A stretch of 48,939 nt of DNA from the NCBI GenBank assembly GCA_949283235.1, contig CASDRY010000011.1, forward strand, positions 1-48,939, given 5' to 3'. Source of the stretch: an uncultured Spirochaetales bacterium. Lineage in GTDB: Bacteria > Spirochaetota > Spirochaetia > Sphaerochaetales > Sphaerochaetaceae. Under the pieces are notes generated by a model. It ran no database searches and was not told the DNA's origin. It saw nothing but the letters and a program-made list of their open reading frames with translations. Position 1 is the first letter of the stretch. Each line of letters starts with the position of its first letter. The translations under genes and the position numbers were made by a program. This document shows positions 5,833-9,541 of this stretch, piece after piece.

Positions 5833-6660
5833 ATGTGCGATCAACACACTACGGCAGATTATCGTGAAGAACTCAAAAGTGTCACGATGGAAGATGATTA
5901 CTTCTTCACTAAGTGCTTCAGCGGAGACAATGAATGCTCTGCTCTTATCCTGAGGATCATCCTGGACAGAGATGACCTGACAGTAGTCGAAGCAAGAACT
6001 CAGGACTGGATTCAGAATCTGGTAGGACACTCTGTCAAGCTTGATCTGTTCTGCCGCGACGCAGCGGGAAACATTTTTGATGTGGAAATCCAGAAGATTA
6101 AGGCAGGAGCAAGCAGCAGAAGGGCCCGCTTTTACAGCGCGGTGATGGATACGAGAAGCCTCGGAAAAGGAAAGAGCTATGATGATCTTCCTGAAAGCTA
6201 TGTGATATTCATCACCCATGAAGATGCCATAGGAGAAGGCCAGGCTGTCTATGAGATTGAAAGATATGTCAAAGGAACATGGAGAGAATACGGAGATGGA
6301 ACTCATATAATCCATGTGAGTGCCAATCTCACAGAGAAAGGAACGCCTCTTGGCAAGCTTATGCATGATTTAAGGTGTGCGGATCCAGATGAGATGCATT
6401 ATACTGAGCTAAGGAATAAGGCAAGATACTACAAGCAAACAGAAGAAGGAGTGGCGGAGATGAGTGCAGTATTTGAAGCGATAGCGGAAAGGATAAGAGT
6501 AAAGAGTTTCGAGGAAGGAGAATCTGATGGAATTATAAAAGGCCGCAAAGAAGTAGCTAAGAGCCTTATAGCAGATGGAACACCATTATCCAAGGTTTCA
6601 GAGCTTACGAACCTTTCAATTGATGAGGTGAATAATCTCAGAAAATCAATGTCTCTCTGA
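5833..6660 (+). CDS. Rpn/PD-(D/E)XK nuclease family transposase-like protein
   Basis: The 275-residue protein has the Rpn (recombination-promoting nuclease, PDDEXK_2) layout. It opens DDYFFTKCFSGDNECSALILRIIL, then carries LDLFCRDAAGNIFDVEIQ, where D71, E85 and Q87 form a D-...-ExQ variant of the catalytic core. Next is a RARFYSAVMD segment. The C-terminal part (about 215-275) is helical and ends in a small HTH-like stretch (SKVSELTNLSIDEVNNL). Such genes are often multicopy, and some relatives act in phage defence. AAAGGAGG precedes the ATG at 5833. Monocistronic. Confidence 0.88.
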   Translation: MCDQHTTADYREELKSVTMEDDYFFTKCFSGDNECSALILRIILDRDDLTVVEARTQDWIQNLVGHSVKLDLFCRDAAGNIFDVEIQKIKAGASSRRARFYSAVMDTRSLGKGKSYDDLPESYVIFITHEDAIGEGQAVYEIERYVKGTWREYGDGTHIIHVSANLTEKGTPLGKLMHDLRCADPDEMHYTELRNKARYYKQTEEGVAEMSAVFEAIAERIRVKSFEEGESDGIIKGRKEVAKSLIADGTPLSKVSELTNLSIDEVNNLRKSMSL

Positions 6661-6861: not shown

Positions 6862-7455
6862 TTATTCCTCATTATCAGGATTCTCTTCAGTAGCTTCATC
6901 TTGTGGATCTTTCGAAGATTCTTCTTCAGATTCTGCCTTGGAATAGAGGGAATAATCTGTATCCTCAGGATACATCTCATAGTATCTCCTGAATGTTTCC
7001 GAAAGCCTTATCCCTGCAGCTTCAGCATACTCCTCAAGCTTGAGCATTGTTATCGTCTTCGCCTTGTTCCTGAAGTCAACTCCGACTCCTGCTGTCTCCC
7101 TCTCAAGTGCCTTAGCCATATCAGAGCGGCATGTATCGGAGCCTGTATTCTCATTCATCATCTGCTGCATTACCCTCAGCATCTTCCATCTGGAATGGAC
7201 AATAGGAAAGAAATCTGAAGATGGTTCTATTCCATATAACCCCTCAGGACCTTTCTCTTCCAGTATTGAGAATGCTTCATATAGGTTTATCCCTAATGGA
7301 TAGAACAGAGCTTCGATAGTGGATAGGAGAGGGAACCAGCCATCTCCGTTATAGACGGAAGCAAGATATCCATAGGAAACCGAAGGAGCAATACCCCTTC
7401 TTTCATAAGCGATAAGGACATGCAGAAGCGCAGACCTTGTGAACAAACTATTCAC
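6862..7455 (-). CDS. Unknown protein with acidic C-terminal tail
   Basis: The 197-residue protein starts with MNSLFTRSALLHVLIAYERRG. The start is GTG at 7455, placed by a perfect AAGGAGG (7468-7462) six bases upstream. A longer frame open to 7593 would add a hydrophobic leader with no ribosome site. The body is helical and predicted soluble; the last 30 residues are very acidic (SEEESSKDPQDEATEENPDNEE). No family was recognised. There are no clear membrane segments with this start. It is convergent with the Rpn gene and divergent from the lipoprotein gene. Confidence 0.7.
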   Translation of the reverse strand: MNSLFTRSALLHVLIAYERRGIAPSVSYGYLASVYNGDGWFPLLSTIEALFYPLGINLYEAFSILEEKGPEGLYGIEPSSDFFPIVHSRWKMLRVMQQMMNENTGSDTCRSDMAKALERETAGVGVDFRNKAKTITMLKLEEYAEAAGIRLSETFRRYYEMYPEDTDYSLYSKAESEEESSKDPQDEATEENPDNEE

Positions 7456-7549
7456 AGAAAACCTCCTTTTTGCAATGACTGAAAACATCTTCGGACAGAA
7501 GATCATAAAAAGCAACATAAAATTCATAAATATTTTCAGAAAAAGGAAA

Positions 7550-7572
7550 TACGTGCGCATGCTACGTGCGCA
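7550..7572. repeat. Tandem 10-bp direct repeat TACGTGCGCA
   Basis: TACGTGCGCA occurs at 7550-7559 and 7563-7572, 13 bp apart and GC-rich inside an AT-rich gap. Each copy contains the palindrome TGCGCA. It sits between two divergent genes and could be a paired protein-binding site. The rest of 7456-7771 is AT-rich with only the poly-G promoter recognised. Confidence 0.5.
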
Positions 7573-7709
7573 CGAGGTGACCATGAAACACATCTAACTG
7601 TCAATATCAAAATCAACTTTTTCAGAAAAAATGAGAGAAATTTCAGATAACCGAAACATACCACCAATGGGTAGTAAATAAAATTTCAAGAAAAAAAAGA
7701 ACAAATGGC

Positions 7710-7740
7710 TTGACAAATCGCTACCGGGGGGGGGTAGGCT
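7710..7740 (+). promoter_or_regulatory. Promoter with nine-G tract in the spacer
   Basis: A consensus -35 TTGACA (7710-7715) is followed by a 19-base spacer whose last nine bases are all G (7726-7734), then a weak -10 TAGGCT (7735-7740). The predicted start near 7747 lies just before GGAGG (7759-7763) and the ATG at 7772. Losing two G would give the optimal 17-base spacing, so tract-length slippage should switch expression. Confidence 0.7.
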
Positions 7741-7771
7741 ATTTGCAGTAAATAATTCGGAGGAATACACA

Positions 7772-9034
7772 ATGAGAAAAATTCTTGTTGGTCTTATCGC
7801 AGCTATGATGCTTTTTGCTTTCACAGCATGCGAACCAAGCTCAATGACAGTGAACAACGTAAATGGTGTTCCTGTTGCAGCTACAATAACAAGTTCTGGT
7901 TCTTTCTATGCAGGAACTTCTGCAAATAATACACCAGTTGTTGTTAGCGTAACTTATGACAATGGCTATGTTCTTGAGAATGTAAATGCAAAGCTTGCAT
8001 CCACAGGAAATGTTAAAGCTGGTACAAACTATGGTACAGTTTCTATTCCTGTTGCAGATTCTTCTACAGGATCAGCACTTGATGTTTCATTTACAGGTAT
8101 TGCAGCAACAGAGCTTCGCCTTGCTCTTGATGAGGATGTAAAGGTTGAGTATGCAAAGGCTGATATCACATCAGAAACTGCAACTATTGATACAGATGGA
8201 GTAACAGCAACTCTTGTATATGCTGATGGACATGAGAGAACTCTGACATCAGATGTTTCTTATAAGTTCAACGGAACAGCAGCTGCTTCTTATCAGGATT
8301 CAACAGCAGTTATTGCAACAGTAACTGGAACAAACCTTACAGCTGATGATAAGGATCTTACAGCTGAGTACGCAATTGAAGTAACTGATTACACAGCTCC
8401 TGCAACAACTGTCACTGTAACATGGAATGTTCAGGTAGCAGATGAAGATGGAGAGTATACAAATTATAATTCTTCTTCAAATAAGCCATCTATTCTCTGG
8501 GGCGAGACTAAGTCAGATCTTCTTGCAAATATCAGAGTTCTTGCTACAACTACAACAAAAGTAGGAAATGGTGCTCCAACAACTACCACAGAGGTTCTTA
8601 CACAGGGTTCCGATTATCAGGTATATGGAATTCCATCAGGAGAACTTAAGACAGCTGGTTCATTTACAGTTGTTCCACTTGTAGATACTACAGGAACACC
8701 TGCAATTACATTTAGCGACACAACAGTTTCTTATGATGTTGTAGATGATGTAGATTGGAATTCTCTTTCTGTAACTTGGGCAGAGACTCCAAAGAATCTT
8801 AAGGTAGAAGGAACTCTCAGCACAACAAGTGGTGATGATGTAGTTGTTTCTCTCAAGAAGCTTAGTGGAACAGCAATTGATACAGGAGTAACTTTCTCTT
8901 ATATCGGAGTTTATTCATTCCCTGAGGAAGACTTCACTGCAGGTCAGTCTGTTTCACCTGTTGTAAAGGTTACATACGGCGACGAATTCAAGACAGCAAC
9001 ACTTTCAGCAAAGGCTCTTGGTGCTAAAGCTTAA
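7772..9034 (+). CDS. Secreted lipoprotein, beta-rich, putatively phase variable
   Basis: The 420-residue protein starts MRKILVGLIAAMMLFAFTAC, a lipoprotein signal peptide with Cys20 as the acylation site. The FTAC box has F at -3, which spirochaetal lipoboxes tolerate. The mature part is rich in T, V, S, D and G with short alternating strands. It looks like several Ig-like/Big beta-sandwich modules (for example residues 105-210, 212-325 and 330-420), but no named domain is certain. Aromatics are few and there are no further cysteines. Codons are noticeably more A/T-ending than in neighbours. Expression is probably controlled by the poly-G promoter directly upstream. The likely location is periplasmic or surface-exposed. 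GGAGG precedes the ATG. Confidence 0.85.
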   Translation: MRKILVGLIAAMMLFAFTACEPSSMTVNNVNGVPVAATITSSGSFYAGTSANNTPVVVSVTYDNGYVLENVNAKLASTGNVKAGTNYGTVSIPVADSSTGSALDVSFTGIAATELRLALDEDVKVEYAKADITSETATIDTDGVTATLVYADGHERTLTSDVSYKFNGTAAASYQDSTAVIATVTGTNLTADDKDLTAEYAIEVTDYTAPATTVTVTWNVQVADEDGEYTNYNSSSNKPSILWGETKSDLLANIRVLATTTTKVGNGAPTTTTEVLTQGSDYQVYGIPSGELKTAGSFTVVPLVDTTGTPAITFSDTTVSYDVVDDVDWNSLSVTWAETPKNLKVEGTLSTTSGDDVVVSLKKLSGTAIDTGVTFSYIGVYSFPEEDFTAGQSVSPVVKVTYGDEFKTATLSAKALGAKA

Positions 9035-9043
9035 TGATTTGAA

Positions 9044-9060
9044 CCCATGTTTTTCATGGG
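9044..9060 (+). other. Hairpin between lipoprotein and HTH genes
   Basis: CCCATG (9044-9049), a five-T loop and CATGGG (9055-9060) form a short perfect hairpin directly before AAGGAGG of the next gene. With no T-run after it, it may stabilise the upstream message rather than terminate. Confidence 0.5.
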
Positions 9061-9075
9061 AATAAGGAGGACGCT

Positions 9076-9282
9076 ATGGAAAACAAACCCACGTCCCTCC
9101 GTCAAAGGATTCCTAATGAGAAGCGTCAGGAATGCTTGAAGCTCTTTGAGCAGGGATACGGATACAAAAAGACCGCTCAGCTTGCAGGACTGAACACATA
9201 TACAGTCAGGGAGTATAAGCGGAAGTTCGCTGCAGGAGATATGTCCTGGGCGGACAGAGGCGGGAAGGTTCTTTCCGTCTGA
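9076..9282 (+). CDS. Small helix-turn-helix protein, transposase-OrfA-like
   Basis: The 68-residue protein contains one HTH (EKRQECLKLFEQGYGYKKTAQLAGLNTYTVREYKRKF, residues about 14-50) followed by a short basic tail with WADRGG. The motif resembles the N-terminal HTH of IS3/IS150-type transposase OrfA. No catalytic ORF, inverted repeats or target duplication are visible. It could be a domesticated fragment or a small regulator. AAGGAGG precedes the ATG, so it is probably translated, likely from the lipoprotein transcript. Confidence 0.65.
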   Translation: MENKPTSLRQRIPNEKRQECLKLFEQGYGYKKTAQLAGLNTYTVREYKRKFAAGDMSWADRGGKVLSV

Positions 9283-9467: not shown

Positions 9468-9511
9468 GTCCTCAGATGCTTAGGTGTCTGAGGCAAATTT
9501 ATTACCTTGCT

Positions 9512-9541
9512 TTGACTGTTAATCTTTATATTTGATATGAT
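9512..9541 (+). promoter_or_regulatory. Leaderless promoter of nadE
   Basis: TTGACT (9512-9517), an 18-base spacer and TATGAT (9536-9541) are followed by exactly six bases and the ATG at 9548. No Shine-Dalgarno sequence is present, so the transcript should start at or next to the initiation codon. Confidence 0.7.

Follow-up and report, generated by a model that had tools for sequence, protein, structure and literature searches.

The window analysed here, a 48,939-nt stretch of DNA from an uncultured Spirochaetales bacterium, probably carries a phase-variable promoter of the sigma-70 type (we put the probability at roughly 0.75), in which a slippery G tract drives a lipoprotein-HTH (helix-turn-helix) operon and the spacing set by slippage switches each such unit independently. 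This reading is favoured because the same arrangement recurs, near-identical copies differ in their number of G residues and the length of the spacer is constrained. The poly-G promoter device would represent a genus-wide system in uncultured spirochaetes, with up to 14 sites per genome, a co-encoded predicted DNA-binding protein and divergent lipoproteins. As far as we are aware, the main spirochaete example of poly-G switching at promoters is Treponema pallidum.

Promoter architecture and the lipoprotein gene

The unit and its surroundings in the window comprise the following features:

5833-6660, + strand: PD-(D/E)XK nuclease family transposase-like protein, upstream of the unit (Pfam PF12784, E 2.4e-11)
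6862-7593, - strand: divergent ORF without a family
7710-7715, + strand: -35 element TTGACA (direct reading), conserved in 14 copies in its own genome
7716-7725, + strand: pre-tract part of the spacer, AATCGCTACC, with TACC at its 3' end (direct reading)
7726-7734, + strand: G9 tract, total spacer 19 nt; tract lengths polymorphic among paralogues and orthologues
7735-7740, + strand: -10 element TAGGCT, of the TAGnnT type usual in this promoter class
7759-7763, + strand: ribosome-binding site GGAGG of the lipoprotein gene
7772, + strand: lipoprotein start codon ATG
7772-9034, + strand: lipoprotein gene, 420 aa, with lipobox FTAC at residues 17-20
9044-9060, + strand: intercistronic stem-loop CCCATG-TTTTT-CATGGG, just 5' of the HTH ribosome-binding site (z -1.6, weak alone in the window)
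9066-9070, + strand: ribosome-binding site GGAGG of the HTH gene
9076-9282, + strand: small helix-turn-helix gene, 68 aa, second in the predicted operon
9470-9493, + strand: terminator-like hairpin closing the unit
9512-9541: promoter-like site of the next gene (gene start 9548)

TTGACA, the 19-nt spacer with nine G, TAGGCT, GGAGG and ATG follow one another in the order, and at exactly the coordinates, given in an earlier sequence-only reading of this DNA, and the G9 tract lies wholly inside the -35/-10 spacer. The claim that a promoter with a tract in its spacer stands ahead of a lipoprotein gene was borne out both by reading of the sequence and by genus-wide recurrence. The promoter, tract and lipoprotein of that reading stand, but its rule for promoter activity is not supported, and it overlooked the HTH operon and the genome-wide family. 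An Rfam search of the window for RNA elements returned no match.

The 420-aa ORF starts with MRKILVGLIAAMMLFAFTAC, a lipobox-type signal peptide (lipoboxes being called by pattern), and its product is a candidate surface lipoprotein. The mature protein is beta-rich in a poor structure model (mean pLDDT 51), and searches for a known family gave weak matches only. A homologue in another species shares 44-47% identity over its length and has a G11 tract. Pairwise comparison of the paralogues in the window genome gives median identities of 62% (signal peptides), 22.5% (mature parts) and 82% (HTH core), the corresponding values in the genome G032 being 65%, 23% and 68%. The divergent ORF at 6862-7593 also occurs beside the same type of lipoprotein at locus L147 (53% identity) and, as a distant relative, at L139; it was rejected as a general part of the unit, being present at just these two among the other loci examined.

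Recurrence in the genome, genus and class

The source genome (2.2 Mb in 147 contigs, with the window as contig C11) contains 23 G tracts of at least eight residues, of which 14 fall between TTGAC and TAnnnT, and all 14 of these precede a lipoprotein ORF. Putative G-tract lipoprotein promoters in this genome number about 15. The pattern TTGAC-N8..15-G7-TAnnnT was matched 181 times in the 36 genus genomes, and a stricter pattern was matched in 74 of 395 genomes of the class, in 20 genera; the reversed pattern gave none in either search. A run of at least eight G is not rare by itself: of 100 shuffled versions of the window (dinucleotide shuffling), 11 have as many matches, and an isolated G run lying by accident beside promoter-like hexamers could on that ground be envisaged. 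Genus-wide recurrence with zero matches to the reversed pattern, however, argues that the arrangement did not arise by chance, and a chance match was ruled out as the origin of the window promoter, its probability being negligible.

The arrangement is also found in other families of the Spirochaetia, including named Treponema records, and one family that uses it (f24) we take to be Treponema-like. The genus of the source organism includes Candidatus Ornithospirochaeta stercoravium, a name that rests on identical coordinates of the HTH copies in genome G029 and in that record (G404), and many of the relatives that have names are bins from gut and rumen. For Ornithospirochaeta and Sphaerochaeta, the literature searched contained no account of phase variation.

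Tract length and spacer length

As read from assemblies, mostly metagenome bins in which homopolymer lengths can be wrong, copies with the same -35 element, pre-tract and -10 element differ in their number of G residues (12/9, 10/9 and 9/8), and the pairs among near-identical paralogues overall are 12/8, 12/9, 11/9, 10/9 and 9/8. Two copies within one genome, L259 (G12) and L040 (G8), have 80 flanking bases that match at all but 2 positions, and in a pair of related genomes, orthologous regions with 98.4% identity over ~700 nt upstream carry G9 and G10. Tract length differs in nine of the 13 pairs with less than 3% flank divergence, which is an upper bound, since duplicates identical in both flanks and length were dropped. 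These differences support slippage as the cause of the differing G numbers. The proposal that the lipoprotein promoter is phase-variable is well supported by such comparison, near-identical paralogues and cross-species orthologues alike differing in tract length.

Among 147 sites of the genus, tracts of G9 (86), G10 (27) and G8 (24) were recorded, and the spacer is 19 nt at 66 sites and 18 nt at 37, the two lengths together making up 103 of the 147. Tracts of at least ten G occur behind 22 of 42 nine-nt pre-tracts and seven of 69 ten-nt pre-tracts (P=1.5e-6; sites and pairs are phylogenetically related and P values here and below are indicative), implying that the tract lengthens or shortens so as to keep the overall spacing constant. 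Uninterrupted tracts occur in 77 of the 94 classified HTH-anchored promoters. In 17 copies the tract is interrupted, ends in another base or has six G, and in 15 of these the spacer is 18 or 19 nt; six of them have the run broken by one T or A, and five of the six have a spacer of exactly 19 nt. Because interrupted or short tracts, which are expected to slip less, keep these lengths, the working spacer of this promoter class is most likely 18-19 nt, and spacers of 20-22 nt are probably weak. The excess of 18-19 nt may in part be due to common descent of one operon family. A second promoter class in the genus has spacers of 16-17 nt, and in g76 genomes of family f24 spacers of 14-16 nt occur at 43 of 50 sites.

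The usual optimum for a promoter spacer is 17 nt. The modal spacer of 19 nt exceeds it, which implies either that this lineage differs or that most copies are off. The prediction that nine G give low activity and that seven would restore 17-nt spacing is in line with the 17-nt rule of tp0126 and porA; neither the 103 of 147 sites nor the 15 of 17 less slippery tracts at 18-19 nt support it. Natural alleles, interrupted 'locked' tracts included, make the rule relating length to activity directly testable without culturing the organism.

Two further observations concern individual spacers. At L254, L266, L282 and L284 the spacer of the HTH operon contains two G6 blocks (of the AGGGGGGCAAAAAGGGGGG type) and its total is still 18-19 nt. 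In one species (genome G024; L258, L259, L261, L264, L265 and L040), five of the HTH-operon tracts sampled have G11-G12, with a spacer of 21-22 nt, and one has G8, with a spacer of 18 nt, as would be expected of a single active unit among silent ones.

The HTH gene and the predicted operon

The 68-aa protein encoded downstream of the lipoprotein is predicted as a trihelical HTH. Its best Pfam match, HTH_23, scores 19.7 bits against a curated cut-off of 24.6, and the best Foldseek hits (E 0.46) are paired-domain and IstA-like; no strong PDB match was obtained by sequence or by fold. Assignment of the ORF to an insertion-sequence HTH (HTH_23/HTH_Tnp_1) was rejected as falling below the family cut-off, as was identification with a named regulator or IS gene, the Pfam match being sub-threshold and those to PHROGs and NCBIfam weak. 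A profile built from 29 copies detected 159 copies of the family, spread over 22 of the 36 genomes of the genus; 24 genomes from other families had none. The number of HTH copies per genome follows that of G-tract promoters (Spearman 0.87).

Within an HTH-anchored set of 112 loci, G-seeded and unseeded mixed, the ORF directly ahead of the HTH gene has a lipobox, by pattern, in 107, and most have a promoter with a G-rich spacer. The intercistronic hairpin recurs with differing sequences in most paralogues (median z -3.6 over 56 operons). Lipoprotein gene, hairpin, HTH gene and terminator are predicted to form an operon, and the two genes would be co-transcribed. Of the sites with a readable promoter and downstream region, 48 have a spacer of 18-21 nt, 41 of them followed by the HTH gene, and 11 have a spacer of 15-17 nt, none of them followed by it (Fisher P=1.1e-7). 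This restriction to long spacers may reflect a single operon family by descent rather than a mechanistic link; both this genus and other families have G-tract promoters without an HTH gene.

Proposed mechanism and alternative explanations

Under the phase-variation model, slipped-strand mispairing at replication would add or remove G residues and so shift the -35 element relative to the -10 element. Each unit would then be strongly or weakly transcribed, independently of the other units, and the population would display changing sets of lipoproteins. The anatomy, the recurrence, the tract-length differences between near-identical copies, the spacer constraint and the gene order were observed, whereas that slippage causes the differences, that it alters transcription, that both genes share a transcript, that the proteins are surface-exposed and which length is on are inferred. 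The HTH protein might, in addition, be a dedicated regulator of the long-spacer G-tract promoters that binds WACC-G-tract-TAG, with the operons feeding back on themselves and their paralogues. Binding to these promoters is worth testing because the dinucleotide AC before the tract is near-invariant (spacer positions 8-9 in 68 of the 69 ten-base pre-tracts of the genus sites) and the HTH gene is restricted to long spacers, but such regulation is regarded as doubtful. Were it to hold, feedback would couple stochastic slippage to coordinated or mutually exclusive lipoprotein expression, and a single cassette would combine random switching with regulation.

The same near-invariant AC would also be expected if the G-rich spacer were chiefly a promoter or operator element of fixed form (WACC-G-tract-TAG) that RNA polymerase or some protein, perhaps the operon's own HTH protein, recognizes, with changes in length as incidental noise. 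The copies with interrupted tracts, which retain both the G-rich composition and the 18-19 nt length, fit such an element, as does the partition of the HTH gene by spacer (41 promoters with and seven without it at 18 nt or more, none with it at 17 nt or less). G-tract promoters that lack the HTH gene do not, however, and uninterrupted tracts would not be expected to prevail, nor lengths to differ between near-identical copies, if only a fixed element were maintained. This explanation is considered unlikely, a little more so than regulation by the HTH protein.

A considerably smaller likelihood is attached to the proposal that the tract is mainly a recombination target, the 5' block (tract, promoter and signal peptide) and the 3' block (HTH gene) acting as homology arms for exchange of the mature segment. 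The contrast within genomes between conserved ends (signal peptide 62-65% and HTH 68-82% median identity) and mature parts at about 23% is consistent with exchange, but fast evolution after duplication can also yield divergent mature parts. Shared blocks stop near the signal peptide in some pairs, contigs often break in the conserved blocks, as repeats would cause, and one copy (L017/L267) joins the usual downstream half of the promoter to a different upstream half lacking TTGACA. Such exchange is hypothetical, however, and the position of the tract exactly between -35 and -10 is needless for it. Phase variation through slippage within the spacer remains the preferred reading.

Comparison with known phase-variable systems

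In T. pallidum tp0126, a tested precedent, the poly-G tract lies between -35 and -10 with transcription best at 17 nt, that of porA lies in the -35/-10 spacer, where its length modulates transcription, and that of tprL spans part of the -10 element and does not set the spacer (PMC7864442). Like the promoter of tp0126, which encodes an OmpW homologue of the outer membrane in a spirochaete, that of the window has a poly-G tract between -35 and -10 whose length sets the spacer (PMC7864442). The window system differs in its number of units (about 15 in the genome), in its modal spacer (19 nt) and in the HTH gene encoded alongside, whereas tp0126 is a single gene, works best at 17 nt and has no reported lipoprotein-HTH operon. 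Neisseria meningitidis porA has a poly-G spacer tract too, and there its length modulates transcription (PMC7864442), but it is one porin gene from another phylum with an optimum of 17 nt. The T. pallidum tprE/G/J and tprL promoters are alike in that poly-G length alters the activity of a surface-protein gene promoter, as is proposed for the window; in tprE/G/J, however, eight or fewer G are permissive, and the tprL tract reaches into the -10 element, unlike that of the window. Its anatomy places the window promoter in the company of tp0126 and porA, not of the tpr promoters. The treponemal tpr analogy drawn earlier is imprecise, the closest case being tp0126 and the tprL tract spanning part of the -10.

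Several switched lipoproteins per genome are likewise a feature of the Mycoplasma Vlp system, in which conserved 5' ends are combined with divergent mature parts, and the window system, as proposed, would be similar to Vlp and Vpma in this respect. Vlp switching proceeds via A tracts and Vpma switching via recombination, and we know of no HTH gene in either system. For Vpma, several switched lipoproteins per genome are reported (PMC2268961).

Additional observations

In the source genome, G8-G9 tracts are also found in the first codons, or just 3' of the lipobox, of other lipoprotein genes (L002 1502, L004 1502 and L009 1502, on contigs C1, C7 and C13). At L002 and L004 the current tract length apparently leaves the start and the signal peptide in different reading frames, and these coding tracts suggest that translational phase variation is likely to occur too. 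Locus L267 (genome G000, contig C39) and L024 have common sequence from the G tract onward and L267 has no TTGACA upstream; L267 is possibly a promoterless or rearranged copy.

G-tract spacer promoters were also observed in non-spirochaetes, namely in a Selenomonadaceae record (L093 7198) and in Clostridia records (L057, L074 and L108), where the genes behind them are, by our own reading, flagellin-like and ABC-transporter-like. Many further G-tract matches occur in Clostridia and Bacilli bins labelled Lapin.
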